Below the pieces are notes generated by a model. That model saw only the letters and a program-made list of their open reading frames with translations. It was not told the origin of the DNA and searched no databases. Shown here piece after piece: positions 4,542 to 58,042 of a stretch of DNA of 59,951 nt. A program made the position numbers and the translations under genes. Each line of letters opens with the position of its first letter. Within the stretch, counting starts at the first letter, position 1. Origin of the DNA: Nitrospirota bacterium (GTDB lineage Bacteria > Nitrospirota > Nitrospiria > Nitrospirales > Nitrospiraceae); assembly GCA_020027965.1 (NCBI GenBank), contig JAHRHE010000002.1:1-59951 (forward strand). Direction: 5' to 3'.

Positions 4542-4606
4542 TGGTTGGGACCCCGCGAGAGGCGGACGGGTAGTTGGTTCTACTACTTCAACCAAAGGGG
4601 GGCGCT

Positions 4607-5074
4607 ATGAGGGCGTGGGCACGTACATACACCGCTCTGTTGATTCCGATAGCTGTTGGTGCCGCAACAGTGTCGATGATCGGGACAGACACTCGATCCA
4701 TCGTGCAGGCGGCAGAGCCTGAGATGAAGATCGAGGTCACGATGAAGAATCAGGGGTACGTCGTCAAAGGTCACACCTCACCGGGTGCGCTCACAGCGAT
4801 CGTGCTTCGCAACGAGGATACGACGAAACATGGCTTCAGCTCCAATTTGTTCAAGCACGTGACGGTCCGTAAAGAAGGCGACGCCGTGGAGGTGACGGGG
4901 CACGGAGTCAAGTCGTATCACGTGGAACCTGGTAAGACCGCGACTCTCTACTTCACCAAGGGACATAGTGCGGAGCGAGAGACTTTGCAATACCCCTTCT
5001 GGTGCGACATCCACACACACATGAAGGGAGAATTTCTGATCGTGGAGACGGCAGGGGAAATTGGGGGTGGATGA
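4607..5074 (+). CDS. Exported cupredoxin (blue-copper) domain protein
   Basis: A 155-residue protein with a signal peptide (residues about 1-36, ending near VQAA) and one cupredoxin fold. Candidate type 1 copper ligands are H75 in 'DTTKHGFSS' and the C-terminal loop 'FWCDIHTHMKGEF' with C133, H136 and M139. It probably shuttles electrons in the periplasm. The same C-x2-H-x2-M spacing occurs in the protein encoded at 6089-7018, suggesting related partners. ATG 4607, preceded by a purine-rich GGGGGGC stretch, is preferred over an in-frame start 33 nt upstream because it places the signal peptide at the N-terminus. Confidence 0.85.
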   Translation: MRAWARTYTALLIPIAVGAATVSMIGTDTRSIVQAAEPEMKIEVTMKNQGYVVKGHTSPGALTAIVLRNEDTTKHGFSSNLFKHVTVRKEGDAVEVTGHGVKSYHVEPGKTATLYFTKGHSAERETLQYPFWCDIHTHMKGEFLIVETAGEIGGG

Positions 5075-5150: not shown

Positions 5151-6062
5151 TTATCGCGCGCAGCGAAAGCCGATCAAATACGAGCGGTGGTCCGGAGCCT
5201 GCGCACCACGCCCAGCGGATCGGGCGACTTCCGGATCCTCGTTCCAAGAGCCACCGCGGAAGACTTTGTCCTGTCCGAGGCCCGGCCCTTGCGGGTTGTC
5301 GCTGGCTGCATCCTGGTAGTATTCGGCGTTAAACCAATCAGCGACCCATTCGGCCACGTTGCCGGCCATCTGGTAGATTCCGTAGGGACTGACGCCTCGA
5401 TCGTAGCGATCCACGTTGGCCAGCGGAGGGTATTTCAAGCCACGCTTAGAGCCTGGATGGGCGATGTTGCTCCGCCCCCATCCGGCCGGCTGATTTCCCC
5501 AGGGAAAGAGGCGGCCGTCGGTCCCGCGAGCGGCCTTCTCCCACTCAGCCTCGGTCGGCAGGCGCTTGCCAGCCCACCGGCAGTAAGCGCTGGCCTCCTG
5601 CCAAGTGATCCCGATCACCGGATGTCGGGCCATTTTCTCCGTGAAGGGGTCCGCTTTCCAGTAGGGAGGCCAGGGTGCACCCGTCGCCAGCACGAACAGG
5701 AGATAATGCGCGTTGGTCACTTCATAGCGGTCGATCTCAAAGGCACCGAGATAGACCTGTCGTTGCGGCTGCTCCTGGGGACCGGCCGCAGGGTCTCGGC
5801 GTGGATCGCTGCCCATCAGGAACCACCCTGCCGGCACCAGGACCATCTCCTCCGGGACGTTCAGGATGGCCAACCGCTCCGCCTCAATCGGCGACGCCCA
5901 TGGGTCGCGCGGCGGCTTGTCATGATCGGCAATCGCGGCTCCTGCCGCGATCAGGCAATAGGCTATAGGCACGAGGCTATGGGCCAAGCTTCGCGTGATG
6001 CGCGGCGCGTGACGCGTGACGAGCGCGCAGAGTCTGCAGCTCTTCACTTCTGGGCCCGTCAC
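5151..6062 (-). CDS. SUMF1/formylglycine-generating-enzyme-like protein, non-catalytic
   Basis: 303 residues from a GTG start. After a hydrophobic export signal (about residues 26-45, 'SLVPIAYCLIAAGAAIA') comes a full SUMF1 fold: 'MVLVPAGWFLMGSDPRRD', 'EVTNAHYLLFV', 'GKRLPTEAEWEKAARG', 'LFPWGN', 'GNVAEWVADWF', 'FRGGSWNEDPEVARSAGR', 'IGFRCAR'. True formylglycine enzymes have two cysteines just after the RGGSW segment; both are absent here, so catalysis of that type is unlikely. Such SUMF1 proteins often act as periplasmic binding or assembly subunits. It follows the blue-copper protein gene by 26 bp and is probably co-transcribed. The first ~40 codons overlap heptamer repeats, so the exact start is uncertain. 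Confidence 0.85.
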   Translation of the reverse strand: MTGPEVKSCRLCALVTRHAPRITRSLAHSLVPIAYCLIAAGAAIADHDKPPRDPWASPIEAERLAILNVPEEMVLVPAGWFLMGSDPRRDPAAGPQEQPQRQVYLGAFEIDRYEVTNAHYLLFVLATGAPWPPYWKADPFTEKMARHPVIGITWQEASAYCRWAGKRLPTEAEWEKAARGTDGRLFPWGNQPAGWGRSNIAHPGSKRGLKYPPLANVDRYDRGVSPYGIYQMAGNVAEWVADWFNAEYYQDAASDNPQGPGLGQDKVFRGGSWNEDPEVARSAGRGAQAPDHRSYLIGFRCAR

Positions 6063-6088: not shown

Positions 6089-7018
6089 TCAGTACGCCTG
6101 TTTCTCGAGTGTCGGCACGATCTTCACATCGCCCATGATGCCGAGACCAAAGCGCGGGTTCTCCACCGCCTCGTTGGCATAGAGGCGGCCGGTCGGCGCC
6201 TCGATCTTCGCGTCCAGGGTGGCCTTGCCTTTGGGTTCGATCGTGACCGTGTATTGCTTGGCCCCGCCGATCTGAGGATGCCAGACCATCACCTTGTACG
6301 TTCCAGGCGGGATGTTGTCGATCTCGAAGCGACCGTCCTTGCCGCTTGTCGCATAGTAGGGGTTGTCCACCGCCAGGCCCCAGCTCTCCATGTAAGCATG
6401 GAACCCGCACTGCATCACAAACACGCGTCGCCCCTTTGTCATGTTGACCACTTGCTTCATGGGCTCGCCCGCCAGATGCTTGTGATACTGGGCCGCCAGG
6501 CCGAGGTCCCGGGGATGCAGGGGGTTCATGGGCAGAGGGACATTGAACAGCACTCGAGGGCCGAGCTCCGAGGTCTCGTAGGCCTGGATATCATGCATGA
6601 CCGGATCCATATTGACGACGGTGACCTCGCGCCGATCTCGAACCACGGTGATAAATGGCTTGAAGGAGCAGTCGATCGCCTCGATGCGCGGTGCCTGAAA
6701 GGTGAACGGCTTTCCGCGATCAATTCCCTCGATCGCGACCACCACGTCGCGGAACGCATGGTCCGACCCTATGTTGAAGGCTTGAAGAAGACGCCACCCA
6801 GTGCCGTTCGAGATTCGGCCGCAATAGACCGGGTCGGGGAACGTGACCAGGTTATACCCCTTCGGCCTCGGAACCTCGCCGACCAGCGTCACTGTCCCGG
6901 TTAACGTGCCGCCGTTCATGACCGTGATCTCTTCATACGCCCACCCGGGCGCCGCCGCCAGGAGCCAGATCACGGTCGTGGCTCTCAGACTGAACCGTAC
7001 CAACTCGCTTCTCTTCAT
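6089..7018 (-). CDS. Exported blue-copper/carboxypeptidase-regulatory-like protein
   Basis: 309 residues with a signal peptide cleaved after 'AAAPGWA'. An N-terminal cupredoxin-like region carries a possible copper set: H142 in 'PVMHDIQAYE' and C204, H207, M210 in 'VMQCGFHAYMESW'. A carboxypeptidase-regulatory-like beta domain follows at about residues 215-270 ('GKDGRFEIDNIPPGTYKVMVWHP'). Such proteins are known next to multicopper oxidases and respiratory clusters of nitrifier relatives and probably carry electrons or dock to an oxidase. GAGGAGG sits just upstream of the ATG. The upstream MCO gene is separated by a strong terminator, so this gene and SUMF1 may have a separate promoter that I could not identify. 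Confidence 0.8.
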   Translation of the reverse strand: MKRSELVRFSLRATTVIWLLAAAPGWAYEEITVMNGGTLTGTVTLVGEVPRPKGYNLVTFPDPVYCGRISNGTGWRLLQAFNIGSDHAFRDVVVAIEGIDRGKPFTFQAPRIEAIDCSFKPFITVVRDRREVTVVNMDPVMHDIQAYETSELGPRVLFNVPLPMNPLHPRDLGLAAQYHKHLAGEPMKQVVNMTKGRRVFVMQCGFHAYMESWGLAVDNPYYATSGKDGRFEIDNIPPGTYKVMVWHPQIGGAKQYTVTIEPKGKATLDAKIEAPTGRLYANEAVENPRFGLGIMGDVKIVPTLEKQAY

Positions 7019-7195: not shown

Positions 7196-10100
7196 CTACT
7201 TCAGCGCCGTCGGCACCACCTGAAGCTGCTCCGGCTGAAGCTGCGCGCGCTTCGCCCCTACCTCGTCCTTCGACAGTGGCAGGATGCGCTGGTCGCCGGC
7301 CGGCAGCACCCGGAAGTAGCCCCACTGCCCGGACTGCGTGTACGGCAGCCGCTGGTTCGACCAGAGATAGTCGCCCACCAGACGGTACGGGCCGCCCGCG
7401 CCCTGACGCAGGAAGACATCCAGCGTTTCCGAGCCTGAGTACTCGACCACGCTGATCATATCGGCGCCCGGCATGTAGGGTTCGATCGGCCACTCGTGTC
7501 CCTCGACCGCGAACATGCCGTTCTGCTCGTTGTTGGCCCCGATTACGTGAATTCGGACCGGGTCGCCCGCATGCGACTCGATCAGCGGCGTCACCGGATC
7601 CTCGGGCTTATCCACCGCGCAGGGGCGGAACATACGCCCGAGCGAGCAACCCTGCTCCTCCCGGAACTTGTAGGGTTCGGCGCGGTAGTTCACCGACGTC
7701 AGACCCGCCACGTTCTGGACGTAGGGCATGAAGCTGGTCCCGATGATGTTGTCCTCGTCCTGGAAGAAGAGGGCCACATCCCGGTAGTTCACCTTGCCGG
7801 CATTCTCCGGCAGGCTCTGGTCCACGATGACGTCCGCCCTCCAGGCGTTCTTGGTCGAGAGATCCTCGCCGGTCACCGGGTCTCGATACTTGGAGCCCTT
7901 GGGCCCGATGACGACGGCCCCGTACAACCCGTTGCGCGGGTTCGTCACGATGTTGCCGCCATCCCACACCAGGGACGTCGTCTCCTTGTTGGCAGGATGC
8001 GCGTAGTAGGTGTAGGTCCGGCTCTCGCCCGGGCCGATGGTCTGATCGCCGGGGTTGTTCCCGACGTTCAGGCCCAGGGAGTGTTTCGGATCGAAGGCCA
8101 GGCCCGGCGCGAAGAAAGACGCCCGGCTGTTGGCCATCTTGTTCTTCAGGTTCACTTGGATGCAGTCCCCGAGGTTCGCGCGCAGGGTCAGCGGGTTGGG
8201 CATCACCGACCCGGCTACCTTGGTGACTTCCTCCTCGAGGGCGAAGATCTTGCCCTCGGGCACCGACATCTCGATCTTCCGCTCGAAGTCCACCTCGATG
8301 GCCTCCGGCGCCTTGGGGTTCAGCTTCAGCAGGCGGTCCAACGCCACCACGTTGAAGGCCTTCACCGGCGCATCACCGGGGCAGACCGACTGTGGCGCTG
8401 CCGGGATCTCGCCGGACGCGGTTCCGGACGGCAGACGCTTCAGGTCCCGCACCTCCTTCTCCAACACACGGAAGATCCCCCATCCCCCTTCGGCGAAGTG
8501 CGAGCTACGGCCGTTGAAGTGGATGTAGTCTCCCGGCATGCCCTGGAATCCGCCTGCCTTCGTCACCAAGTCATACCGCTCGGCGATCCCAACGTGGATC
8601 GAGTTTTTCCGATTGGCATCCCCGGCATACCGCTCGGTCAGGAACGTGTGCCCTGAGAGGGTCCAGACGTGCGACTCGTTCATGAGCTGGTGCAGCAGGC
8701 GGAACACCACCGTGTCGCCCACGTACGCGCGCAAGAGCGGCGTATCCGGGTCCCCGTGGATGGCGCTGCTGAATAGCTTCGAGGTGTCGGGGTTATTCAC
8801 CAGTCGTCGCGCGAACGGCTCGGCCCGGAAGTTCAGGCCGCTGCCGGTCGTGTGCGTGCCCCCGTTAATGTACTTGTTAGGGGACGCGAGGATCTTGTCC
8901 GGCATGGCGAACGACACGGTTTTCCCGGCCTCCAGCGCGACCTCGACCGGCTGGCCCGGCGGGTTGCCCGCCGTCACCACGTTCACGGTGTGCGGCACCG
9001 TGTCATGGATGGACACCATCAACTCTCGGAAGCTGCCGTTCACGCCGTAGCCCACCGGCTCAACCGTGTGGATGTCGGCGATCGGGCCGCTTCGGATCGG
9101 CTGGCCGGTCTTCGGGTCATGGTACGTGGACCCGAACGGCTCGATGATCACGCTCCCGAACCCGCCGTGCGGCCACGTGGTGGCGCCGAAGGCGTGGTCG
9201 TGCCAGAACACGGTCCCCAGGTCCGAGTCCACCCACCATCGGTACCGGATGAACTCCACGGTGGCGATGTCGTTGCTGGGATGGTCGTGCTTCAGTGGTT
9301 GATAAAAGGTGATCGTGCTACCCTTGATGTCCTTGATCCGGGCGATCTCGAAGCCCTTCACGCTATCCGCTCCGACGAGCAGCTCGGTGTTCACGTGATA
9401 CTGAGCCGCGTTCTTCACCGTGATGGATCTGGCGCCGGCCTTGACCGCCGCCGTCAGCACGGTGTTCATCGGCACCGGCAACCCGTGCTTGCCTTTCTTC
9501 TCCAGCATCGTGAACGGCCGCGCGGACTGCTCGTAGGAGAGCCCGCTGATCACGCCGTCCGACGCCTGGTTGTCGAACTGCATGAAGTGGGGATGAATGT
9601 TAATCTTCGACGACTGGAAGTTGGTGTAGTCGTCGTCATCCCACTCGCTGGTGAGCACCACGTCCACGCAGTCGTACACGTTCGCGCGGATCACCAGCGG
9701 GTACTTAAGGTCATCGTTCTTCCGGACCGCTTGCTCCTCCTCGTGCAGGACGTAGATCAACCCGTCCTTGTCCACGATCGGGGCCTCCTTCCCCTGCTTC
9801 GTGGAGAGGGTGATCGGGAGCCGGATGAAGTGGATGTTGTAGAATTTCCGGTTCGCGTTGTTCGGGCAGAGACTCCAGCGGCCCTGCTCGCCCGGCTTCG
9901 CCGGTTCGGCCGTCCGCTCGCCGGTCTCGTCCTGGTGGATCATGTCCAACCAGGGTGCGCCATTGTGGTTCGGTGGGAACATAATGCGCTTCCCGAAGTG
10001 TGGCTTCACGAGCGGGAAGGAGACCTTGCCGGTCTTAGGTTCAAAGAGGATGGCCGGCCTGGTGCGATCCTCCCATTTGGCGACGGCGGGATACTTCGGA

Positions 10101-12067
10101 TTCACAGCCGTGCTCTCCCGCTCGCCCAGCGCCCTGGTGCCGTCCCACTTCCAGTCCCACACCGTGGCGTCGTAGGCCATGATCTGGCCCTTCTCGTCGT
10201 CCTTATGGCCGGGTTTGCCCATCGTGGGCACCTGGATTTCCACCCAGTCCTTGATCGTGACGATGGCCGGATCAGCCTTCCAGTTGGTCTTCTGTGAGTT
10301 GTCCACGATCTTGAAGGTCTTGCCGAACCAGTCCACGGTCTTGCCGACCAGCTTGTCGGAGGTCACCCCGACAAGCATCCGGCCCTGGCGATCCGGCAGC
10401 TCCCGCATGTCCGGCATGGTGTCGGTGTGGGACTGGCCCACCTGCAGGGTGTTGTAGGTCCGCGCGTAGCCCCACATGCCGGCCACGTAGTGGTGCGCCA
10501 CGTGGCAGTGGAACAGGAAGTCCCCGGCCAATTGCTGGCAGAGACCGGAGCCGCACTCGTTCTCCAGATCCAATGCCTCGGACGGCCCGATCACCTCTAC
10601 GTCCACCCGGTCGGTCTTGGTCCGGACCACCGGATACTTCACCGGCCCATCCTTGGCCAGGGCCCACAGCTCCTGATCCACAGCCCGCGGGCTGCGCGGC
10701 CAGCGGATCGAACCGCCATGCGGATGGTGGGAGTGGAACACTTCCGATCCGCCATGCACGATCCGCCACTTGACCGGATCGCCCAGGTAGGCGCGCGGAA
10801 GCGTCGTGGGAATGTCGCCGAACGTGTAGGCGCTGTAGGCGAGCGACTCGTCTTCGAACCCGAAATACTCGTGCTGCAAGTGCATCTCGTCGATGCCGAA
10901 GGGCTCGCTGCGGTAGTTCAGCGCGCGGCCTCCCGGACGATACGCATCAGTCAGCGGATCGCGCTGGGGCAGGAAGTCCCCTTTCTTGTTCAACGGCCGG
11001 AAGGCTTCATCCCCGATCTCGTGATAGAAGATCACGTGCTCGCGGAAATCCGGCCCCGAGCCGTTGTCGATCATCACCTGCCAGCCGCTCTTGGCCTCGG
11101 TAGCCGGTCCTGTCCCGAGCGGCTCCAGATAGCGGGACCCCTTGGGTTCCACGACGAAGGCCCCGAACAGGCCCATCACCGTCAGCTCACGGTCATTGCT
11201 GTAAGAATGGAACTGCCGGACCCCTTCTTGGATCGAAGGATGAAGGTACCACTCCATTTCGACCGTCTTGCCCGGATCCACGACCGAGTCAGGGTTCGTG
11301 GTAGTGGCGGCCTTGCCGGTTGCACTGATCACCACGCTGGAGCCGTGGATGTGCAGGCTGCCCGCCTCATCCTTCATCTGGTTCCGCAATATGATCCTGA
11401 CGCAATCGCCCTGGTTGCCCCGGATGACCAGCGGCTGGATGGCATCGCCCTGAAGGCCGGTGGTGACGGCGCCAGGGTCAAACCCTTCCTTTTCGCGCGC
11501 GGCCTTGTTCTTGGCCTCCTCCGCCCGGACTTTGTCAATGGTCTCGGTCAGGACATACATGTAGCCGGGGTAGTAATCCAGCCAGCGATTGAGCGTGATC
11601 TCAACCGTGATCATCGAAACGTCGTACTGCTTCACCGGAGCCGCGGACGGGCATTTGCCGCCGGCCAGCGCGACCGGCTCAGCCTTGCTATCGGAGGCCA
11701 GCAAGAAGCTGGAACCATCCTGGCCCATATACTGGTGCATCATGGACATCCCGTTGTACCCGCCGGACGTCCATTGTGCAGAAGCCTGCTGTTCCATCTG
11801 CCGCATGAGGCGATGGTGCTGCAACTCCACTTGCTCGGAGCGGCCGGCCCGCCCCTCGAGCGCGTCCTCCACCCTTGTCTGGCCATTCAGGGCCTCGGCC
11901 CAGTTCGGGCCTGACACAGCGGTCGCATGACCCTGGTGCCCTTCCCCTTCACTCCCCGCCGCGAAGACCGCCGGCGACACCAGCAGGCTGCCAGCAAGCA
12001 GGGCGGCTTGCAGACTCACCGCCGCCTTCGCGGCGCGTCGTCCGCGGTAAATACGTGATGACATCAT
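7196..12067 (-). CDS. Giant periplasmic multicopper oxidase with six cupredoxin-like domains
   Basis: About 1623 residues from ATG 12067, chosen because AGGAGG lies at 12075-12080; the frame opens 42 nt earlier. Numbering below counts from the longer frame. A signal peptide ends near residue 51. Three two-domain modules follow. Module 1 (~160-555) has HIH 253-255, H301, HPH 462-464 and the type 1/trinuclear loop H534-C535-H536 with H540 and M545. Module 2 (~755-1215) has HPH 839-841 and HDH 970-972, but its second half lacks the cysteine (H1140, H1147, H1154 remain). Module 3 (~1245-1605) keeps the fold but none of the ligands. Residues 556-755 form a linker. Size and domain number recall MofA/MnxG-type manganese oxidases; the substrate is unproven, and iron, copper or another metal is possible. 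Confidence 0.88.
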   Translation of the reverse strand: MMSSRIYRGRRAAKAAVSLQAALLAGSLLVSPAVFAAGSEGEGHQGHATAVSGPNWAEALNGQTRVEDALEGRAGRSEQVELQHHRLMRQMEQQASAQWTSGGYNGMSMMHQYMGQDGSSFLLASDSKAEPVALAGGKCPSAAPVKQYDVSMITVEITLNRWLDYYPGYMYVLTETIDKVRAEEAKNKAAREKEGFDPGAVTTGLQGDAIQPLVIRGNQGDCVRIILRNQMKDEAGSLHIHGSSVVISATGKAATTTNPDSVVDPGKTVEMEWYLHPSIQEGVRQFHSYSNDRELTVMGLFGAFVVEPKGSRYLEPLGTGPATEAKSGWQVMIDNGSGPDFREHVIFYHEIGDEAFRPLNKKGDFLPQRDPLTDAYRPGGRALNYRSEPFGIDEMHLQHEYFGFEDESLAYSAYTFGDIPTTLPRAYLGDPVKWRIVHGGSEVFHSHHPHGGSIRWPRSPRAVDQELWALAKDGPVKYPVVRTKTDRVDVEVIGPSEALDLENECGSGLCQQLAGDFLFHCHVAHHYVAGMWGYARTYNTLQVGQSHTDTMPDMRELPDRQGRMLVGVTSDKLVGKTVDWFGKTFKIVDNSQKTNWKADPAIVTIKDWVEIQVPTMGKPGHKDDEKGQIMAYDATVWDWKWDGTRALGERESTAVNPKYPAVAKWEDRTRPAILFEPKTGKVSFPLVKPHFGKRIMFPPNHNGAPWLDMIHQDETGERTAEPAKPGEQGRWSLCPNNANRKFYNIHFIRLPITLSTKQGKEAPIVDKDGLIYVLHEEEQAVRKNDDLKYPLVIRANVYDCVDVVLTSEWDDDDYTNFQSSKINIHPHFMQFDNQASDGVISGLSYEQSARPFTMLEKKGKHGLPVPMNTVLTAAVKAGARSITVKNAAQYHVNTELLVGADSVKGFEIARIKDIKGSTITFYQPLKHDHPSNDIATVEFIRYRWWVDSDLGTVFWHDHAFGATTWPHGGFGSVIIEPFGSTYHDPKTGQPIRSGPIADIHTVEPVGYGVNGSFRELMVSIHDTVPHTVNVVTAGNPPGQPVEVALEAGKTVSFAMPDKILASPNKYINGGTHTTGSGLNFRAEPFARRLVNNPDTSKLFSSAIHGDPDTPLLRAYVGDTVVFRLLHQLMNESHVWTLSGHTFLTERYAGDANRKNSIHVGIAERYDLVTKAGGFQGMPGDYIHFNGRSSHFAEGGWGIFRVLEKEVRDLKRLPSGTASGEIPAAPQSVCPGDAPVKAFNVVALDRLLKLNPKAPEAIEVDFERKIEMSVPEGKIFALEEEVTKVAGSVMPNPLTLRANLGDCIQVNLKNKMANSRASFFAPGLAFDPKHSLGLNVGNNPGDQTIGPGESRTYTYYAHPANKETTSLVWDGGNIVTNPRNGLYGAVVIGPKGSKYRDPVTGEDLSTKNAWRADVIVDQSLPENAGKVNYRDVALFFQDEDNIIGTSFMPYVQNVAGLTSVNYRAEPYKFREEQGCSLGRMFRPCAVDKPEDPVTPLIESHAGDPVRIHVIGANNEQNGMFAVEGHEWPIEPYMPGADMISVVEYSGSETLDVFLRQGAGGPYRLVGDYLWSNQRLPYTQSGQWGYFRVLPAGDQRILPLSKDEVGAKRAQLQPEQLQVVPTALK

Positions 12068-12093
12068 GGCACGGCCTCCTTTTTCTTCTAGCA

Positions 12094-12225
12094 GAGAGCT
12101 AATAGCCAATAGCTAATAGCCCGATTAAGACCAACCCAGAAACACCGGCAGCTCACGAACTGCTCACCTTCCGCCTCCGGCCTCGAGCTCTCTAGCTACG
12201 AGCTGTTCGCTGCTAGCTCTTGGCT
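12094..12225. repeat. Heptamer-phased repeats in the MCO leader region
   Basis: Units of the type AATAGCC/AATAGCT run in 7-bp phase at 12094-12121. GCT triplets spaced almost exactly 7 bp recur from 12187 to 12225. They lie between the predicted transcription start and the MCO start codon, so they would be in the mRNA leader. Confidence 0.6.
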
Positions 12226-12325: not shown

Positions 12326-12340
12326 GCAACCAACGTGCCA
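12326..12340 (-). promoter_or_regulatory. Sigma-54 (-24/-12) promoter for the multicopper oxidase gene
   Basis: Read on the minus strand, TGGCACG (12340-12334), four bases, then TTGC (12329-12326) matches the sigma-54 consensus TGGCACG-N4-TTGC at every fixed position. Transcription would start near 12314, giving a leader of about 250 nt before the MCO ATG. The adjacent upstream gene encodes a sigma-54 activator. Confidence 0.85.
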
Positions 12341-12639: not shown

Positions 12640-14058
12640 CTACTGAAGATGGTAGGTGCGCAGCTTGTTATACAAGCCCGCCCGGCTGATTTTCAGGAGA
12701 CGCGCGGCCAGGGCGCGTTTGCCGGCCGCCTGGCGCAGCGCTTCTTCGATGCGGGTCCGCTCGGCGCTCTGGACGGCGGTGCGGACAACAGTGCGAAGGC
12801 AGGGATAAGAAGCTGTGACGGTGCCAGCGACGGAAGGACGCCCCAAGAATAGTTCCAGCCTGAGCTCCGGACCGGGGGCGGTCACCACCGCGCGTTCAAT
12901 CAGATGCTGGAGCTCCCGGACATTGCCCGGCCACGGCGCTTCGGTCAGGGCCTGCATGGCTTCAGGCGTGACGACCCGCACGACCTTGCCATGGCGCTTG
13001 CAGGACGCCTCGAGGAAATGGCGGACCAGCAGCGGGATGTCTTCACGCCGGTCCCTGAGCGGAGGCAGGAGCAGGGGCAAGACCGCCAGACGGTAGTAGA
13101 GGTCTTCGCGAAACGCCCGTGCCTTGACCAGCGCCATCAGATCTTTGTTCGACGCCGAGATGACCCGGACATCCACCTTGGTCGAGCGGCTGGTTCCCAC
13201 CGGCTTGATCTCGCCTTCCTGGAGGACCCGAAGCAGCTTGGCCTGGAATTGTGCGCTGGTGTCTGCGATCTCATCCAGAAAGATCGTGCCGCCGTCGGCC
13301 GCCTCGAACAGGCCCTTCTTCGAGCAGAGCGCGCCGGTGAAGGCCCCCTTCATGTGGCCGAACAGCTCGCTCTCGAGCAAGCTCTCCGGCAGCGAGCCGC
13401 AGTCCACGACGACGAAGGGCTTTTCACGACGGTGACTCAGATGATGGATCGTGCGCGCGACCAACTCCTTGCCGGTCCCGCTCTCACCCTGCAACAGGAC
13501 CGTCGCGTGACTGTCGGCGACCAGCCGGATCATCTCAAACAGCTGCTGCATCGGTGCACTCTGGCCGAGCATGTCCCGCAGGCGAATGGCCCCGGATTCG
13601 GAGGACTCGGTCGATTCAGAGCTTGCCTGGTCCGGTGGGCTTCCGACGTGACCTCGATCTCCACTCTCCTTCAGGAGGACGAGCACTGCCGCAGCCTTGC
13701 CTCGGCCGGGCATCAGCGGGAAGGCCTGGACCATTCCGCACGCGCTCCCGTCCTGACCGGTGGAGCAAGACACCGAACGCACCTCGCTGGATTCAAACAC
13801 GGCGATGGCCGGGCAGTGTGGACAGGGGACAGCCCCTCCCAAGACCGCCTCGTAGCATCGGGCCTGACGTGTGCCGTGGACTTCCCGTTCGGCGCTGGAC
13901 CAGGCCGACTCGTTGGCGTAGATGATCGTGAACTCCCGGTCGAGAACCATGACCCGGTCGGAGACTTGATCCGCAAGCAGTCGCAATGCTTCCAGTCGGG
14001 CCGCGAGGATGGGGTCGGTCACGGGGGGATTGGAACAGTCTGGTTGAGATCCGGCCAT
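12640..14058 (-). CDS. PAS-domain sigma-54-dependent transcriptional activator
   Basis: 472 residues. The N-terminal PAS domain (about 22-130) has a cysteine cluster: C68, the CPHC pair C79/C82, C98 and C107, suggesting redox or metal sensing. The central AAA+ domain (about 165-400) has Walker A GESGTGKE (191-198), the sigma-54 contact loop GAFTGA (238-243), Walker B 'GGTIFLDEI' (257-264) and 'GNVREL'. A Fis-type helix-turn-helix ends the protein ('[21 protein letters not shown]'). There is no receiver domain, so its signal is sensed directly. It lies 36 bp after the lone receiver gene and directly upstream of the sigma-54-controlled MCO gene, so it probably activates that promoter. Confidence 0.92.
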
Positions 14059-14094: not shown

Positions 14095-14493
14095 TCAATC
14101 GGCACTTCGGCCCGCAGGGCCGGTACTGTTCAGCAACCGGATCACGGCCTCCTTCAGGTCCGCGATCCTGACCGGCTTGTCGAAATAGGCGGCCACGCCG
14201 GTTCGTAATGCGTCGGCTTTGGTTTTGGCGTCACCGAATGCGGTCATGAGGATAATGGGAGAGCGCGGCGCCAGGGTTTTCAAACGTATCACATAGTCGA
14301 GCCCCCCGGCGGGCATCCGGAGGTCCGTGAGAATGAGATCCGGAAGAGATTCACTGATCCGCTGCAGGGCCTCATCGCCGTCGCCGGCTTCCACTATGCG
14401 GAGCCCCAGGTCCCAGAGCTCGTCGCAGAGGAGGCTTCGCATGGCTTGATCATCTTCTACCAGGAGCAACACCGTAGGCCTCTTGGTCTCCAT
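14095..14493 (-). CDS. Single-domain response regulator (receiver only)
   Basis: 132 residues forming one CheY-like receiver: acidic pair 'LVEDD' near residue 15, phospho-acceptor D57 in 'LILTDLRMP', switch threonine in 'ILMTAFGD', and 'YFDKPV' with the conserved lysine. No output domain. It probably relays phosphate or binds a partner, and is co-transcribed with the PAS activator 36 bp downstream. The globin-coupled kinase encoded 315 bp upstream is a plausible phosphodonor. Confidence 0.88.
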   Translation of the reverse strand: METKRPTVLLLVEDDQAMRSLLCDELWDLGLRIVEAGDGDEALQRISESLPDLILTDLRMPAGGLDYVIRLKTLAPRSPIILMTAFGDAKTKADALRTGVAAYFDKPVRIADLKEAVIRLLNSTGPAGRSAD

Positions 14494-14729: not shown

Positions 14730-14821
14730 GAATAGCGGGTAGCCAGCAGTGAATAGCAATGGGCGAAACGCCGGCTAACTTCCCCTGCTACTCGCTATTG
14801 GCTGCTAGCTATTCGCTTAGC
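14730..14821. repeat. Inverted pair of heptamer arrays at the kinase 3' end
   Basis: GAATAGC-type heptamers at 14730-14757 face GCTATTC-type heptamers at 14787-14821, in phase and roughly complementary. The last codons and stop of the histidine kinase lie inside the right arm. The rest of the 315-bp gap (14494-14808) shows no gene and no clear promoter. Confidence 0.65.
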
Positions 14822-16413
14822 GGAAGCGTGATTGTGAACGTGGAGCCGCGGCCAGGTTCGCTGTCGACCTCGATCGAGCCGCCGTGCTCCTGGATGATGC
14901 CCTGCACCACAGTGAGCCCCAGTCCTGTGCCTTTGCCGACCTCCTTGGTCGTGAAGAAGGGAACGAAGATCTTCTCGAGGTCCTCCCTGGGGATTCCATG
15001 TCCCGTATCGGTGACCGTCAGCGTAATCTGCTGACCCTTCAGTCTGAGGCCGAGCCGAAGGATGCCGCCTTCCGGCATCGCGTGAATGGCGTTGATCACG
15101 AGGTTCAAGAGCACTTGGCTCATCTGGTCGGGATCGGCGTGAACGGGGGGCAGGGAGGGAGCAAACACGGTTTCCACCTGGATCCGGTGTCGAGCCAGGC
15201 GTTCCCGGAGCACCTCCAGGATGTCCTGGACCGTCCAACTGATGTCCATCGGCCGCCGTTCGCTCGGCCGCCGCCGGGCGAAGGTGAGCAACTGGTTCAT
15301 GATTTTGGTGATGCGTTCGACTTGCCCAACAATCGTCTCCAGCCCCTTCTTGGTCGTCTCTTCCTGGGTCCGCTGCATCAGGTACTCGGCCCGGCCGAGG
15401 ATCACGTTCATGGGGGTGCCGATCTCATGGGCCATCCCGGCCGCCAGCGTCCCCAGCTCGGCCAACCGCTCGGTCCGGAGAAGCTGGTCCTGCACCCGTG
15501 TCATCTCCGTGATGTCGAGCCCGGTGCCGATGATATACTCGACCGCCCCCGTCCTGTCGAGGATGGCCGTGTTCGTCCACGAAATGAGCCGCCGAGCCCC
15601 ATCCTTGGCCACCCAGTAGTTTTCGTGCCGATTGGGAGCATCGCCGCCACGCAGCGTCTCGAAGACGGCTCGGACCGGTCCCACCTCTTCCGGAAGGAGG
15701 AACAGATCCCAGAGAGCCCTGCCCCGGACTTCCTCGAGGGAGTACCCGGTTGCCAGTTCACAGGCTCGATTGAAGCGGACGATCCGCCCCTCGGTATCCA
15801 ACACGACCACCAGCGCCCCGGCCGTCTCAAGGACCGCCGAGATGAAGTCGCGCTCTTTCTGCAGATCTTTGCTTCTCTTGTCCAGGCCCTTTTCCAGCTC
15901 TCGGCTCAGCTCGGCAAGCTGGCGATTGACGAACTCCAGCTGCGCGGATGATTTCGTGATATAGGATTCGATCGCCAGCCCGATGTCGAGGAACACCACC
16001 TTCGTGAGGGCGATTCTGAGGAACTGACACTGGGCGGGACGATCGTGGAACTCTTTGAAGATCAGCGGATGCAGCAGGTTCAGATAGAGCGCATAGGCGC
16101 CGAGGTACCACTGGGGCGTGAGCCCAATGCGGTTGTGGACTTCGCCTATCCTCAATCGCTCGTCTCGATACTGCTCGTCATAGGGACCGGTCACCAGTGA
16201 GAGGAGGTATCGCTTCTGCGCCTGCTTGAGCCGGGTGGTGATCAGTTCGTCCGACAACAGCCGCCGCGTCTCCGGGAACTGGAGCAAATGCCGATAAAAT
16301 GTCTCCACCAGGCCGTCCGCGTGCTGGACCATCAGCGGATGAAGCTGCTTGAGCGCGGTCTCCTCCTCATCCGTGAGGCGCAGATAGTTTTTCCGGAGCT
16401 GCCAGTCGGTCAT
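14809..16413 (-). CDS. Globin-coupled PAS histidine kinase (oxygen/redox sensor)
   Basis: 534 residues without membrane segments. Residues 1-160 form a protoglobin/globin-coupled sensor domain; H93 in 'EVHNRIGLTPQWYLGAY' is the expected proximal haem ligand. A short coiled coil (160-190), a PAS domain (about 190-310), a HisKA domain with phospho-accepting H329 ('GMAHEIGTPMN') and a HATPase domain ('NLVINAIHAMPEGG', 'DTGHGIP', 'GKGTGLGLTVVQGI') follow. It should sense oxygen or another haem ligand in the cytoplasm and phosphorylate the NtrC-type regulator encoded 29 bp upstream, and perhaps the lone receiver downstream. The ribosome site is weak. Confidence 0.9.
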   Translation of the reverse strand: MTDWQLRKNYLRLTDEEETALKQLHPLMVQHADGLVETFYRHLLQFPETRRLLSDELITTRLKQAQKRYLLSLVTGPYDEQYRDERLRIGEVHNRIGLTPQWYLGAYALYLNLLHPLIFKEFHDRPAQCQFLRIALTKVVFLDIGLAIESYITKSSAQLEFVNRQLAELSRELEKGLDKRSKDLQKERDFISAVLETAGALVVVLDTEGRIVRFNRACELATGYSLEEVRGRALWDLFLLPEEVGPVRAVFETLRGGDAPNRHENYWVAKDGARRLISWTNTAILDRTGAVEYIIGTGLDITEMTRVQDQLLRTERLAELGTLAAGMAHEIGTPMNVILGRAEYLMQRTQEETTKKGLETIVGQVERITKIMNQLLTFARRRPSERRPMDISWTVQDILEVLRERLARHRIQVETVFAPSLPPVHADPDQMSQVLLNLVINAIHAMPEGGILRLGLRLKGQQITLTVTDTGHGIPREDLEKIFVPFFTTKEVGKGTGLGLTVVQGIIQEHGGSIEVDSEPGRGSTFTITLPLSE

Positions 16414-16442: not shown

Positions 16443-17828
16443 TCATGCCCCGCGCCGCTCACCTTTCTGGTCGATTTCTGCCAGCTTGCGGTACAGTGTC
16501 TTCCGGTCGATCCCCAGGACCTGGGCCGCCTGGTATTTGTTGCCACCGGTCTTCTCGAGGATCCGCTGAATGTATTCCTGTTCGACCTCCTGCAACGGCA
16601 GCGTGCGTTCGGCCGCCTCGTCAAGGACCCGTCGCTCTCCGCGCGCGCCCTGGACGGCGGGAGGCAAATCTTGAGGAAGAATCTTCTCACCGCGCGCCAA
16701 CGTCACCGCGCGCTCGATGACGTTCTCGAGTTCACGGACGTTTCCAGGCCACGGGTAATCCATCAAGAGCGCCAGGGCGGACTCGCTCATCGCGTGGGGT
16801 TCCTTCTGGCCAGCCTCGGCGCATTTGCGGAGGAAGGCGTCCACCAGCAGCGGGATGTCCTCGCGACGATCCCGGAGGGGCGGCATGCGGATCTCGATGA
16901 CGTTCAGGCGGTAATACAAGTCTTCGCGAAACCGCTTGGCCTTCACTTCGTCGGCCAGCGCCAAGTTGGTCGCGGCGATGATCCGCACATCCACCGGCAC
17001 GGCGCGAGTGGCTCCGACGCGGCGAATCTCCCGCTCCTGGATGGCCCGCAGCAGCTTGGCTTGCAGCATCAGCGGGAGCTCGCTGATCTCGTCCAGAAAG
17101 AGCGTGCCGCCGCTGGCTTCCTCGAAGAGCCCCCGCTTGTCGGACTTGGCGTCGGTGAAGGCGCCTTTCGTGTGACCGAACAGTTCACTCTCCAATAACG
17201 TGTCCGGAATGGCCGCGCAGTTCACCGGCACGAAGGGGGCGTCCCGCCTCTCACTATTGTAATGGATCGCCTTGGCGACCAGCTCCTTCCCGGTTCCGCT
17301 CTCGCCCGTGATCAGGACGTTGGTCGAGCTGTCGGCCACCCGTCGGATGAGGTCGAAGACCTCGCGCATGGGCTTGCTCTTCCCCAGAATCTGGTGGAAG
17401 CTGTACTCCTTGCGGACCTCGCGCCGGAGACGGTTGACCTCGCGCCGAAGCACAGCCTCCTGCAGCGCCTTCTCGGTGACCAGGATGAGTTCCTCGCTCT
17501 TCACGGGCTTGGTGAGATAATCGTAGGCGCCCTGCTTCATGGCCGCGATCGCGGTCTCCACCGATCCAAAGGCCGTCATGAGGATCACATTCGTATCCGG
17601 GTAAGCCCGCTTCACCTCCGCCAGCAGCTCGATCCCCGGCATCTCTCTCATGCGAAGGTCCGTGAGCACCACCTCATAATCCTCTTCGCCCATCCGTTTC
17701 AGCGCCTCGCGTCCACTTTGCGCGACCGTCACCTGATGGCCCCGCCCCTGCAGCACGTCCCGGATCAATGCCCGCATCTCCGCGTCATCATCCACGACGA
17801 GAATGGATCCGGTCTCCTCCGGGCTCAT
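16443..17828 (-). CDS. NtrC/AtoC-family sigma-54 response regulator
   Basis: 461 residues: receiver domain (D57 in 'VVLTDLRMREMPG'), AAA+ domain with Walker A GESGTGKE, a GAFTDA form of the sigma-54 contact loop, Walker B 'GGTLFLDEI', 'GNVRELENVIERA', and a C-terminal Fis-type helix-turn-helix ('KYQAAQVLGIDRKTLYRKLAEI'). It has a good ribosome site (AAGGAGAGG). It is the first gene of a pair with the globin-coupled kinase 29 bp downstream, so the two probably form a two-component system. Targets are unknown; the MCO promoter is one possibility alongside the PAS activator. Confidence 0.92.
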   Translation of the reverse strand: MSPEETGSILVVDDDAEMRALIRDVLQGRGHQVTVAQSGREALKRMGEEDYEVVLTDLRMREMPGIELLAEVKRAYPDTNVILMTAFGSVETAIAAMKQGAYDYLTKPVKSEELILVTEKALQEAVLRREVNRLRREVRKEYSFHQILGKSKPMREVFDLIRRVADSSTNVLITGESGTGKELVAKAIHYNSERRDAPFVPVNCAAIPDTLLESELFGHTKGAFTDAKSDKRGLFEEASGGTLFLDEISELPLMLQAKLLRAIQEREIRRVGATRAVPVDVRIIAATNLALADEVKAKRFREDLYYRLNVIEIRMPPLRDRREDIPLLVDAFLRKCAEAGQKEPHAMSESALALLMDYPWPGNVRELENVIERAVTLARGEKILPQDLPPAVQGARGERRVLDEAAERTLPLQEVEQEYIQRILEKTGGNKYQAAQVLGIDRKTLYRKLAEIDQKGERRGA

Positions 17829-43287: not shown

Positions 43288-44541
43288 ATGTCTCCCTCTC
43301 TCCTTTCGAATGCCGGCATTTTGACGATCAACGCTGGCTCGTCCAGCATCAAGTTTGCGTTCTTCCGCGGAGGCCAGTCCCTCCTTCGAACCGTCTCAGG
43401 CCAAATGGGACGGATCGGGCTGCCTGGCACCGAGCTCACGGTGACCGATGTCGCCAGCCAACACGCAGAGCGGACCCCGATTCACGCGTCTGACCATGCC
43501 GGGTGTCTCGATCCCTTGATGGAGGCGCTGGAGAAGAAAGGATACCTGTCCGCGATCCAGGCGGTCGGCCATCGTGTGGTGCATGGCGGAGACCGGTACA
43601 ACCAGCCGGCTCGAGTGACGCCCGACGTGCTGGCAGAATTGCGCCGGCTGAGTCCCTACGACCCTGAGCACTTGCCAGCCGAGATCAGTTTGATCGAGGC
43701 GTTCAGCCGGCGGCACCCCGCATGGCCGCAGGTCGCCTGCTTCGATACGGCGTTCCATCGCGACATGCCGCGCGTGGCCCGATTGCTTCCCATCCCTCGC
43801 CGCTATGACGCGCAGGGCATTCACCGGTATGGCTTTCACGGCCTGTCCTACGCCTATCTCATGGAGGAGCTGCAGCGGCTCGGTGGGAGCACAGAGGCGA
43901 ACGGCCGGGTGGTCCTGGCGCATCTGGGCAACGGAGCCAGTCTCGCGGCGGTGCGTGGCGGCAGGAGTATGGATACGACGATGGGGTTCACGCCGACGGC
44001 CGGGGTCCCCATGAGCACACGCTCAGGAGACCTCGATCCCGGAATTGTCGCCTACTTGGCCAGGACTGAAGGGATGAGCGTGGACGAGTTTCGCGTGATG
44101 GTGAATACCCAGTCCGGACTCCTCGGCCTGTCGGAGATCAGCCCCGACCTGCGTGATTTACTCGAGCGCGAGCCGAGCGACGTGCGCGCAGCCGAGGCCG
44201 TCGCGTTGTTTTGCTACCACGTGAAAAAGGCGATCGGCGCGTTTGCAGCCGCGCTGGGTGGAATAGACACGCTGGTGTTTGCCGGTGGCATCGGGGAAAA
44301 CTCGGCCGTCATCCGTGCCCGCATCTGCGAGGGGCTGGGTTTTCTCGGCCTGGAGCTGGAGGCGGGACGCAACCGGGCGCACGGCCCGGTCATCAGCACG
44401 CCGGGCAGCCGGGTCACCGTGCGGGTGATTCGCACGGACGAGGAGTTGCAGATCGCCACATCAGTGGCGAGACTCCTGACCGGACAACCCGCGCGGCCGG
44501 AGGCCGAGCGGGCCGGAACCGCCCGTCAGGCACGCGGATAA
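43288..44541 (+). CDS. ackA: Acetate kinase
   Basis: 417 residues, within the family range. The ASKHA-fold signatures are present: '[16 protein letters not shown]' near the N-terminus, '[15 protein letters not shown]', '[10 protein letters not shown]', '[11 protein letters not shown]', '[39 protein letters not shown]' and '[13 protein letters not shown]'. It interconverts acetyl-phosphate + ADP and acetate + ATP, the final ATP step after phosphoketolase. It heads an operon in which phosphoketolase follows after 97 bp. Confidence 0.95.
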
Positions 44542-44638
44542 TGTGGAGTTGGTACATGAGCATATTTTAACATCCCGCGCTCTCGCCCGGTTCGGGCTTT
44601 CAGCAGACCGCGGGCACCACACATTGGAGGATGCACCG

Positions 44639-47047
44639 ATGGCGAACGTACTATCAGACAAGGAAGTGAAGTTAATCGATGCTTATTGGCGAGCTGCCAA
44701 CTATCTGTCGGTCGGGCAAATTTACCTGTACGACAACCCGCTCCTCAAGAAGAGCCTCACCAAGGAGCACATCAAGCCGCGGCTGCTCGGCCACTGGGGC
44801 ACGACGCCTGGGTTGAACTTCATCTACGTCCACCTGAACCGGCTGATCAAGAAGCACGATCTCAACATGCTCTACATCACCGGCCCGGGGCACGGGGGGC
44901 CCGGCCTCGTTGCCAACGCGTACCTCGAGGGCACGTACAGCGAAGTGTACCCGAACATCTCTCAGGATGAAGCCGGGATGAAGTGTCTGTTCACCCAGTT
45001 CTCGTTCCCGGGCGGCATTCCCAGTCACGTCGCGCCGGAAACACCGGGTTCGATCCATGAGGGCGGCGAGCTCGGGTACGCGGTCTCGCACGCGTACGGG
45101 GCGGCGTTCGACAACCCCGATCTGGTCGTGGCCTGCGTGGTCGGCGACGGGGAGGCGGAAACCGGGCCGCTCGCGACAAGCTGGCATTCCAACAAGTTCC
45201 TGAACCCGGCCACCGATGGTGTGGTTCTGCCGATCCTGCACCTCAATGGCTATAAAATCGCCAATCCGTGCGTGCTGGCCCGCATCAGTCACGAGGAGCT
45301 CGATCACCTGTTCCGGGGGTACGGTTACACGCCCTATTTCGTCGAAGGGCACGAGCCTGAGACGATGCACCAGCTCATGGCCGGCACGCTGGACACGATC
45401 GTCGCGGAGATCCGTCGCATCAAGGCCGATGCGCGCCGCAACGGGGCCACGAAGCGACCGCTGTGGCCCATGATCGTGCTCCGCACGCCCAAAGGATGGA
45501 CCTGCCCGAAGGAGATCGACGGCAAGCGGACCGAAGACTACTGGCGTTCCCATCAGGTGCCCATGGGCGAGATGCACGAGAACGCGAGCCATGTGCGCGT
45601 CCTCGATAAATGGATGAAAAGCTACATGCCGGAGGAATTGTTCGACAAGACCGGCCGGCTTAACTCCGACCTGGCCGCATTGGCACCCACGGGGGATCGC
45701 CGCATGAGCGCCAATCCCCATACCAACGGCGGCGTGCTGCTCAAGGACCTGCGACTGCCCGACTTCCGCGACTATGCCGTCAAGGTCTCGAAACCCGGTG
45801 CCGTCACGGCCGAATCCACCCGCGAGATGGGCAAGTTCCTGCGAGACGTCATGAAGCTGAACCTGGACCACCGAAACTTCCGCCTCTTCAGTCCCGACGA
45901 GAACAACTCCAACCGTTGGCAGGATGCGATGGAAGTCACCAACCGGGCCTGGATGGCGGACCGTTACCCGTATGACGACCACCTGGCGCCGGACGGCCGC
46001 GTGATGGAGATGCTCAGCGAGCACCAGTGCCAGGGCTGGCTGGAGGGGTATCTCTTAACCGGCCGGCACGGATTTTTCTCCTGCTATGAGGCCTTCATCC
46101 ACATCATCGATTCCATGTTCAATCAACACGCCAAGTGGCTGAAGGTCACACGCCACATTCCATGGCGGCGGCCGATCGGCTCGCTCAACTATCTGCTCTC
46201 CTCACACGTGTGGCGCCAGGACCATAACGGGTTCAGCCATCAGGACCCCGGCTTCATTGACCACGTCATCAACAAGAAGGCAGAGGTCGTCCGCGTCTAC
46301 CTCCCGCCCGACGCGAACACGCTGCTGTCCGTGACCGACCACTGCCTGCGAAGCCGGAACTACGTCAACCTCATCGTCGCCGGCAAGCAGCCGGCCCCGC
46401 AATGGCTGACGATGGACCAGGCCATCAAGCACTGCACGGCCGGTATCGGCATCTGGGAGTGGGCCAGCAACGATAAGGGCGGGGAACCCGACGTCGTCAT
46501 GGCCTGCTGCGGCGATGTGCCCACGCTGGAGACGCTCGCGGCGGTGGATTTGTTTCGCCAGCACCTGCCGCAACTCAAAGTCCGCGTCATCAATATAGTG
46601 GACTTGATGAAGCTCCAGCCGTCGAGCGAGCATCCGCACGGGCTCAGCGACCACGAGTTCGACGTCCTGTTCACCAAGGACAAGCCGATCGTCTTCGCGT
46701 TCCACGGCTATCCGTGGCTGATCCACCGGCTGACCTACCGGCGAACCAATCACAAGAACCTGCACGCGCGCGGCTACAAGGAGGAGGGCACCACCACGAC
46801 GCCGTTCGACATGTGCGTCCTGAACGACATGGACCGCTTCCACCTGGCTGCCGACGTGATCGACCGCGTCCCGCACCTGGGAGCCCGGGCCGCCTATGCC
46901 AAACAGGCGATCCGTGACAAGCTCATCGAGCACAAGCAGTATATCGCCCGGTACGGCGAGGACATGCCCGAGATCACCGACTGGACCTGGGAGCAGCGCG
47001 CGCCGGCGTCCCGGCGCTCGGGCTCCACGGAAGCGGACAATGTCTGA
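44639..47047 (+). CDS. xfp: Xylulose-5-P/fructose-6-P phosphoketolase
   Basis: 802 residues from ATG 44639 with GGAGG nine bases upstream; the frame opens 96 nt earlier but only from here does it match the family. Clear signatures: '[21 protein letters not shown]', '[18 protein letters not shown]', '[21 protein letters not shown]', thiamine-diphosphate motif '[19 protein letters not shown]' near 169, and '[14 protein letters not shown]'. It cleaves xylulose-5-P (and possibly fructose-6-P) with phosphate to acetyl-P plus glyceraldehyde-3-P or erythrose-4-P, feeding AckA. Confidence 0.96.
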
Positions 47048-47068
47048 GCGTCGAGAGGAGGTTCTTCC

Positions 47069-49591
<2,523 letters not shown>

Positions 49592-49644
49592 CAGGGCCCC
49601 GAAACGGTACGAAGACAAGGCGATTCGGAGAAGAGAGCGGTGCG

Positions 49645-51738: not shown

Positions 51739-51856
51739 GCGCAGGAGCCAACGGTGGTGCACCCGCGCGGAATATGCGCGGGAGATTTGGGGCGTCAAGC
51801 CATGTCCCGTGTCGTAGCAAGCGCGAGATGACAGGCGACCTCAACGGAGCTGATGC

Positions 51857-52666
51857 ATGAAGCAAGCGCAAGACGGTGCCGACGGGAAGAAACTGAAACG
51901 TAAGAAGTACGAGAAGGAGCTGCGCAAGCTTCAGGCTGAACTGTGCATTCTCCAGGACTGGGTGAAAGACAAAGGCCTGCGGATCATCGTGGTGTTTGAG
52001 GGACGCGACGGCGCCGGCAAGGGAGGGACCATTCGCGCCATCACCGAACGCGTCAGTCCACGCGTGTTCCGCCTCGTGGCGTTACCCGCGCCCTCCGACC
52101 GCGAGAAGAGCCAGATGTATATACAACGCTACATGCAGCACTTCCCGGCGGCCGGCGAGATTACCATCTTCGATCGCAGTTGGTACAACCGCGCCGGGGT
52201 GGAATGGGTCATGGGCTTTTGTACCAAGGAGCAGCATGCCCGCTTTCTCGAAATCTGCTCGGCGGTCGAAAAGTACATCGTTGACGGCGGGATCATCCTG
52301 ATCAAGTTCTGGCTCGAGGTGAGCAACAAGGAACAGGAGCGGCGCTTCCAGGCTCGCATCGAGGATCCGTTGCGCCAGTGGAAGCTCAGCCCGATGGACC
52401 TCCCGTCGCGTGCCCGCTGGTACGACTACTCGCGAGCGCGCGACCAGATGCTGGAGGCGACGGACACCAGGCACGCACCCTGGTATATCTTGCGGTCGGA
52501 TGACAAGAGGCGGGCGCGCCTCAACTGCATTACCCATCTGCTGAAGCTGATTCCCTACAAGAGGATAAAGCGTGACAAGGTGAAACTACCCAATCGATCG
52601 AACAAGCGCAAGTACGATGACCAGGCGACGTTGAAGGGAAGAAAGTTTATCCCAGAGAAGTACTGA
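51857..52666 (+). CDS. ppk2: Polyphosphate kinase 2 (PPK2)
   Basis: 269 residues, single-domain PPK2. Walker A 'FEGRDGAGKGGTI' lies near residue 50 and Walker B 'IFDRSWYNRAGVEWVMGF' near 105. Also typical are 'KYIVDGGIILIKFWLEVSNKEQERRF', 'WKLSPMDLPSRARWYDY' and 'APWYILRSDDKRRARLNCI'. It transfers phosphate between polyphosphate and nucleoside diphosphates (subtype direction uncertain). Its position inside a glycogen/phosphoketolase operon links polyphosphate turnover to glycogen use. Gap of 118 bp before, 25 bp after. Confidence 0.93.
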   Translation: MKQAQDGADGKKLKRKKYEKELRKLQAELCILQDWVKDKGLRIIVVFEGRDGAGKGGTIRAITERVSPRVFRLVALPAPSDREKSQMYIQRYMQHFPAAGEITIFDRSWYNRAGVEWVMGFCTKEQHARFLEICSAVEKYIVDGGIILIKFWLEVSNKEQERRFQARIEDPLRQWKLSPMDLPSRARWYDYSRARDQMLEATDTRHAPWYILRSDDKRRARLNCITHLLKLIPYKRIKRDKVKLPNRSNKRKYDDQATLKGRKFIPEKY

Positions 52667-52691
52667 CTGGGAGTTTGGAGCGGCCACGATC

Positions 52692-54755: not shown

Positions 54756-54757
54756 CC

Positions 54758-57700: not shown

Positions 57701-58042
57701 GCCCACGAGCGCGCCTTACAAACCATGCGGCATGCGGTCCGGGATCGGAAGCACGTTGCGACCTGCCTCGGCTTCGGCCCGCGCTTCCTGCACTCGACCG
57801 GGCAGGCGTACAAGGGCGGGCAGAACACGGGCGTCTTTCTGCAGATCACGTGCGACGACGCCGCGGACCTGCCGGTTCCCGGCCAGACCTATACGTTTGG
57901 TGTCGTGAAAGCCGCACAGGCCCGTGGCGATTTTCAGGTTCTGGTGGAGCGTGGCCGCCGGGCCCTGCGCATCCATCTGGGCAAGGACGTTCGGGCGGGA
58001 TTGCAAAAGCTGGATGCCGCCATCAAGCAGGCATTGACCTAG
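54758..58042 (+). CDS. Trifunctional RpiB-transaldolase-glucose-6-P isomerase frame
   Basis: 1094 codons without a stop from GTG 54758. Residues 1-143 are a complete RpiB ribose-5-P isomerase: '[10 protein letters not shown]', catalytic C65 in '[10 protein letters not shown]', and H98. Residues 144-~510 are transaldolase ('[13 protein letters not shown]', Schiff-base K283 in '[10 protein letters not shown]'). Residues ~525-1094 are glucose-6-P isomerase ('[14 protein letters not shown]', '[11 protein letters not shown]', '[12 protein letters not shown]'). Tal-Pgi fusions of about 950 residues are known in this type of bacterium and normally begin MENPL. Here that methionine (M144, ATG 55187) follows RpiB directly with no stop codon. 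Either a three-enzyme polypeptide is made, or Tal-Pgi also starts internally. Confidence 0.9.
55176..55189 (+). promoter_or_regulatory. Possible internal ribosome site and start of Tal-Pgi
   Basis: AAGGTG lies about six bases before the in-frame ATG 55187 that encodes the usual first methionine of Tal-Pgi proteins (951 residues from here). It could allow a separate Tal-Pgi product within the longer RpiB-Tal-Pgi frame. Confidence 0.4.

Follow-up and report, generated by a model that had tools for sequence, protein, structure and literature searches.

Where in a very large multicopper oxidase of the Nitrospirota is copper held, and what might the enzyme oxidize? The question arises from a stretch of 59,951 nucleotides (contig JAHRHE010000002.1; in the following "the window"), which carries a gene for a six-domain protein whose copper motifs are split between its first two modules. 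We put at roughly four in five the probability that this protein is a periplasmic, MnxG-type oxidase of six cupredoxin domains, with type 1 copper in domain 2 and a trinuclear site at the joint of domains 2 and 3, the figure applying to the statement as a whole.

Gene and domain plan of the oxidase

The gene starts with an ATG at 12067, immediately 5' of which lies a GGAGG ribosome site, and residues ~1-36 were judged by eye to form a predicted signal peptide. An earlier note on this DNA had given the correct size of about 1620 residues, although its term "1.6-kDa-residue-class" is meaningless; its residue numbers are 14 too high, as they had been counted from an upstream TTG (12109) despite ATG-based coordinates. 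The leader of the gene (window 12070-12120) contains a repeated GCTATTAGCTATTGGCTATTAGCT tract just 5' of the ribosome site. The gene and its domains are:

7196..12067, minus strand: six-domain multicopper oxidase gene, open ORF, 1623 aa
11108..11650, minus strand: domain 1, residues ~140-320, without intact copper site, Pfam Cu-oxidase_3 match
10424..11080, minus strand: domain 2, residues ~330-548, putative type 1 site and half of the trinuclear site
9053..9865, minus strand: domain 3, residues ~735-1005, putative other half of the trinuclear site
7268..9040, minus strand: domains 4, 5 and 6, residues ~1010-1600, cupredoxin folds without copper ligands

The Cu-oxidase_3 match covers residues 214-309. 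Pfam's best domain call is domain 1, which lacks a copper site, and this should be taken as a warning for annotation.

Candidate copper ligands in domains 2 and 3

Four motifs provide the candidate ligands, given here with their conservation in the two alignments described below:

10718..10735, minus strand: H445-S-H-H448-P-H450, candidate type 1 His and two trinuclear His (77/77, 14/14)
10475..10510, minus strand: H520-C521-H522-x3-H526-x4-M531, candidate type 1 Cys, His and Met and two trinuclear His (77/77, 14/14)
9587..9595, minus strand: H825-P-H827, candidate trinuclear His pair (77/77, 14/14)
9194..9202, minus strand: H956-D-H958, candidate trinuclear His pair (77/77, 14/14)

Judged from sequence, it is very probable that type 1 copper belongs to domain 2 and the trinuclear His to domains 2 and 3. 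The type 1 set comprises H445, C521, H526 and M531, all located in domain 2, and is the only one of the chain, while the trinuclear His are divided 4 + 4 between domain 2 (H448, H450, H520, H522) and domain 3 (H825, H827, H956, H958). Once renumbered, the motifs named in the earlier note were all recovered, i.e. an intact type 1 loop in module 1 (its C535/H540/M545 being C521/H526/M531), the HPH of the same module (462-464, now H448-P-H450), and HPH 839-841 and HDH 970-972 of module 2 (H825-P-H827 and H956-D-H958). What it had described as missing is indeed missing: the second HxH of module 1 is degenerate (H301-S-Y, now H287-S-Y), module 2 lacks a type 1 Cys in its second half, no Cys being located between C800 and C1229, and a search of module 3 for HxH or HCH motifs detected neither. 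No complete copper site was found in domains 1, 4, 5 and 6, and domains 4 and 6 have no type 1 Cys.

All 12 proposed ligands are invariant in the 77 full-length Nitrospirota rows, which represent the full-length ORFs among 91 matching ones and include the window's own oxidase. On its own this is weak evidence, since the same alignment is invariant in 411 of its 1623 columns. The 12 ligands are likewise present in 14/14 rows of an alignment spanning Nitrospirota, Actinomycetota, Bacillota, Halobacteria and Pseudomonadota, whose five distant rows (Streptomyces, Priestia, two haloarchaea and Microvirga; 28-37% identity to the window's protein) are a sample picked out of 19 plasmid records with a match. 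Here, 100 columns are invariant, and the 12 invariant residues among 66 His and Cys include all 11 His/Cys ligands (hypergeometric P ~1e-11), H349 being the sole addition.

Two- and three-domain oxidases, read linearly, would lead one to expect that the trinuclear site is completed within module 1, from domains 1 and 2, and both the Pfam match in domain 1 and the presence of H287 in 74/77 rows could be cited for this arrangement. However, domain 1 does not offer two HxH pairs: its pseudo-ligands drift (H239 in 30/77 rows, H241 in 13/77) and H287-S-Y is left without a second His, whereas the four His of domain 3 are present in 77/77. We consider a site within module 1 very improbable.

As ligands are present in no other pair of domains, the domain 2/3 joint is the only place where a complete centre could be assembled, either within or between chains. 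In two-domain laccases the trinuclear site is located between subunits, and by analogy domain 2 of one molecule could pair with domain 3 of another in a domain swap employing the same ligands. Yet, with six domains per chain in an order colinear with MnxG, an intramolecular site is the simpler solution, and a swap appears unlikely. We thus favour the site within one chain, which corresponds to the earlier note's proposal of an inter-module centre built from the end of module 1 and the start of module 2: exactly eight trinuclear His and a complete type 1 set are present there, all of them invariant, and both ends of the chain are colinear with MnxG (see below).

In the mechanism that we propose, three two-domain modules would be arranged as a pseudo-trimer, in which copper ligands are kept at only one of three possible inter-module joints, domain 2/domain 3. 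Such a ring would also account for the order of the ligands along the chain, where the usual third and fourth motifs precede the first and second. Electrons from the substrate would enter singly at the type 1 copper of domain 2, from which they would travel through the H520-C521-H522 bridge to the trinuclear cluster, held by the four His of domain 2 and the four of domain 3 listed above, where O2 would be reduced to water. The proximity of the ligands in three dimensions and the reduction of O2 are what we infer from this arrangement. As far as sequence allows, the copper-bearing joint is settled for the oxidase of an abundant environmental clade.

Relationship to MnxG

The MnxG-like kinship suggested in the earlier note was recovered by sequence as well as by fold, MnxG 9bxa being the best match in both cases. 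It was the sole match in a single-sequence PDB search (4.7e-86) and ranked first in a profile search (8.5e-108), which placed six small two-domain laccases far behind. Sequence alignment showed that domain 2 of MnxG likewise contains the HxxHxH and HCH motifs, and the Priestia relative carries the full ligand set. However, the oxidase scored 119.5 bits with the NCBIfam MnxG model NF041487, below the required cut-off of 3100, and we therefore regard it as MnxG-like rather than MnxG proper, so that the substrate of the latter is not transferable. A small Priestia protein, which by position and size we take to be MnxF-like, yielded no match in the window organism's genome when used as the one query, without positive control.

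Two AlphaFold2 models were computed, covering D1-D4 and D3-D6. The D1-D4 model, based on alignment A1 of 34 sequences (the others being 56-92% identical to the window's), had a mean pLDDT of 59.3 and a pTM of 0.56, and pLDDT fell below 50 over residues 348-532 including the type 1 loop; because domain 2 is poorly modelled, the geometry of the site is not readable from it. The D3-D6 model was the better of the two (pLDDT 69.3, pTM 0.72). MnxG 9bxa was the top fold match for both, covering 676 residues for D3-D6 (Z 20.4, rmsd 3.4, MnxG 437-1217) and 584 residues for D1-D4 (Z 15.8, rmsd 4.3, MnxG 1-797), where the rows below lie within 1 Z and tie with it by Z, the aligned length being greater for MnxG. 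The models support a six-domain order colinear with MnxG. Next after MnxG in the fold searches came ceruloplasmin and factors V/VIII, which could be cited for a site located, as in ceruloplasmin, at the joint of domains 1 and 6; but domain 6 is devoid of HxH, HCH and type 1 Cys in all 14 rows, which leaves such a location with a probability close to nil.

Distribution and paralogues

Among 395 Nitrospirota genomes, 174 contained a match at 1e-10 or better. The window's own class accounts for 171 of them, and the three matching genomes outside it gave weak scores. Only one genome of the class (G357) appears among the misses listed, and the order of the table suggests that the remaining 201 non-matching genomes lie outside the class, within which the oxidase is near-universal in this set. 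Most matching genomes have two matches each. The window organism's own second copy is split across two contigs, with 74% and 73% identity. A tree of the oxidases, obtained with a quick method with SH-aLRT support only and subject to a long-branch warning for outgroups and clade C, groups the marine rows with clade B, though marine clade and clade A have the sigma-54/NtrC context described below in common.

Two oxidase genes share one locus in six genomes (L033, L040, L055, L029, L031, L069; 66-77% identity to the window's), and a clade C paralogue with 52-53% identity lies ~5 kb upstream in L056, L049 and L080. At L045:9944-14914 the oxidase occupies two separate frames, reflecting a frameshift or an assembly error, and L051, a contig binned as Opitutales (Verrucomicrobiota) with an oxidase of the marine Nitrospirales type, is probably mis-binned.

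The second paralogue at L085, in a genome that we take for N. defluvii (G049), has two blue-copper-like proteins encoded downstream of it and two cytochrome bd-like proteins in its vicinity. Adjacency of this oxidase to NXR was not confirmed: NxrA has a length of ~1150 codons, and no ORF of this length was found within ~100 kb around this paralogue, considering ORFs of at least 150 codons in L085-L086 and of at least 380 in L095-L097. As regards NXR in the window organism, its genome has three genes of the molybdopterin family, whose open frames span 921-928 codons.

A sigma-54 promoter and neighbouring regulators

Upstream of the oxidase the following features are found:

12326..12340, minus strand: candidate sigma-54 (-24/-12) promoter TGGCAC-N5-TTGC, exact match, directed at the oxidase
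12640..14058, minus strand: NtrC-type sigma-54 activator, next gene upstream of the oxidase
14095..14493, minus strand: response-regulator receiver protein
14809..16413, minus strand: histidine kinase with N-terminal protoglobin and PAS domains
16443..17828, minus strand: second NtrC-like response regulator, named from its sequence; homologues adjoin the oxidase in relatives

The promoter, TGGCACGTTGGTTGC, lies on the same strand as the oxidase and is the only zero-mismatch sigma-54 match in the window. Only this perfect match counts, because matches with at most two mismatches are no commoner than chance (49 observed vs 58 expected). When one mismatch was allowed within 450 bases, 34 of 54 testable clade-A loci had a site, as opposed to 0/54 on the opposite strand, and the other 20 had none; sites were present in 8/11 loci of the marine clade and in 1/12 of clade B, the second paralogue. 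An NtrC homologue is located upstream of the oxidase in 20/33 testable clade-A loci, and the sigma-54 gene itself is encoded in the window organism's genome. From sequence motif and context we infer that the oxidase is under sigma-54 control. No report of a link between sigma-54 and this oxidase was found in the open-licence literature; in the passages concerned of the one open-licence paper combining Nitrospira, multicopper oxidase and sigma-54, the latter refers to an unrelated zinc regulator.

The protoglobin domain of the kinase (14809-16413, minus strand) is of the heme sensor type for O2 or NO. The sensor half of the kinase differs among relatives, as its globin part is common to L079 alone among the 23 kinase homologues listed.

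A blue-copper-type neighbour

Two genes follow downstream of the oxidase:

6089..7018, minus strand: blue-copper-type protein with signal-peptide-like start and carboxypeptidase-regulatory-like C-terminus, next gene downstream of the oxidase
5151..6062, minus strand: FGE-sulfatase/SUMF1-like protein in the same gene run

The amicyanin-type blue-copper loop has the form C-x2-H-x2-M and is combined with an upstream His. In the neighbour the corresponding residues H142, C204, H207 and M210 are invariant in 89/89 rows, the window's own included, and by this motif alone the protein is assigned a putative type 1 copper; it has no Pfam cupredoxin match and no PDB relative with E below 0.17. Its gene is found downstream of the oxidase in 38/47 clade-A loci, one of the 47 being the window organism's own second copy, and in 5/6 clade-B, 10/10 marine and 3/3 clade-C loci that could be tested, while the FGE-like gene comes next in 38/42 clade-A loci. 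The neighbour is likely an electron-transfer partner of the oxidase.

A small separate cupredoxin-like protein with the copper loop WCDIHTHM is encoded at 4574-5074 on the plus strand; no homologue above the cut was found in the oxidase loci of relatives. Neither of the two small copper proteins matched a phage-family library. Farther away, a carbon-storage cluster (43288-58042, plus strand) encodes acetate kinase, phosphoketolase, glycogen phosphorylase, an isoamylase-like protein and transketolase, together with one frame having RpiB-, transaldolase- and PGI-like parts.

Candidate substrates

The likeliest substrates would be a metal ion, for instance Mn(II), and the adjoining blue-copper protein. 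Of these the metal ion is slightly favoured because of the MnxG kinship, and its oxidation possibly serves to protect from oxidative stress. With somewhat less than even odds, the same active site might not oxidize Mn(II) but draw its electrons from Cu(I)/Fe(II) or from the blue-copper partner in its reduced form, the latter case amounting to a side branch to O2 that relies on copper alone; all of this is compatible with the domain 2/3 architecture. The invariant copper motif of the partner and the frequency with which its gene accompanies the oxidase agree with this second view. However, co-occurrence is silent on direction: the partner could as well accept electrons, deliver copper or have a structural role, and its type 1 copper is assigned by motif, with neither the Pfam match nor the PDB kinship that might back it.

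A bolder variant of metal oxidation, which we regard as a long shot, combines the sigma-54-controlled oxidase and its blue-copper partner in a dedicated periplasmic branch. Electrons from the oxidation of Mn(II), or of a different metal, would there reach the small copper carrier rather than O2 alone. If true, this branch via a copper carrier would imply energy conservation from metal oxidation in Nitrospira; with electrons running in the reverse direction, the system would represent a copper-only auxiliary terminal oxidase. In either case, the oxidase is a core gene present almost throughout the class, and its context of sigma-54 promoter, neighbouring two-component system and blue-copper partner is conserved. 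Manganese oxidation by Nitrospira, a question raised by passages on sand filters (PMC12070406), thereby becomes testable with one named gene set instead of any gene labelled MnxG.

Comparison with known systems

Both the site with its logic and its occurrence in nitrifiers have been published before. According to the relevant passages of PMC3600357 (Vasin et al. 2013), every bacterial six-domain oxidase included in that analysis possesses a trinuclear site at domains 2/3 and a mononuclear site in domain 2; the trinuclear position equals that in two green algae, while ceruloplasmin has it at domains 1/6. On the strength of these passages the inter-module arrangement described here is of a known type. 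The word Nitrospira is absent from PMC3600357, which places the Nitrospira clade outside that set.

For nitrifiers, Luecker et al. 2013 (PMC3578206) report, in the part concerned, that Nitrospina gracilis and Ca. Nitrospira defluvii possess an MnxG-like oxidase, for which defence against reactive oxygen was suggested; its gene is clustered there with those of a cytochrome bd-like oxidase and two cupredoxin-like proteins. The neighbourhood of L085 fits this cluster, which, as described in that part, matches the second paralogue better than the window's sigma-54-linked copy, both being of the same family. Excerpts of further studies mention MnxG in sand-filter Nitrospira genomes, a role in Mn oxidation being called possible (PMC12070406), MnxG and other putative manganese oxidases in nearly every nitrifier genome from a tunnel biofilm, their function awaiting verification (PMC11995701), and two novel multicopper oxidases per genome in Ca. 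Manganitrophaceae (PMC9040806). New here are the near-universality in the class, the usual two paralogues, the sigma-54 promoter beside an NtrC-type activator and the blue-copper-type neighbour.

The earlier note had called the arrangement reminiscent of ceruloplasmin. This holds for the principle, i.e. a six-domain pseudo-trimer with an inter-module trinuclear site, but not for the joint, as the 2/3 position is that of the bacterial and algal type in the passages of PMC3600357. Ceruloplasmin has its site at domains 1/6 and type 1 coppers in domains 2, 4 and 6, in contrast to the 2/3 site and single type 1 set here, and domains 1, 4 and 6 of the oxidase contain no complete ligand sets. Compared with MnxG of Bacillus sp. 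PL-12 (PDB 9bxa, Mnx H340A complex, in which Ala occupies the expected type 1 His position, matching the H340A of the title), the oxidase is longer (1623 vs 1227 residues) and has a longer segment between domains 2 and 3. It shares with MnxG the six cupredoxin domains in identical order, the domain 2 motifs HxxHxH and HCH, and the HxH pairs of domain 3.
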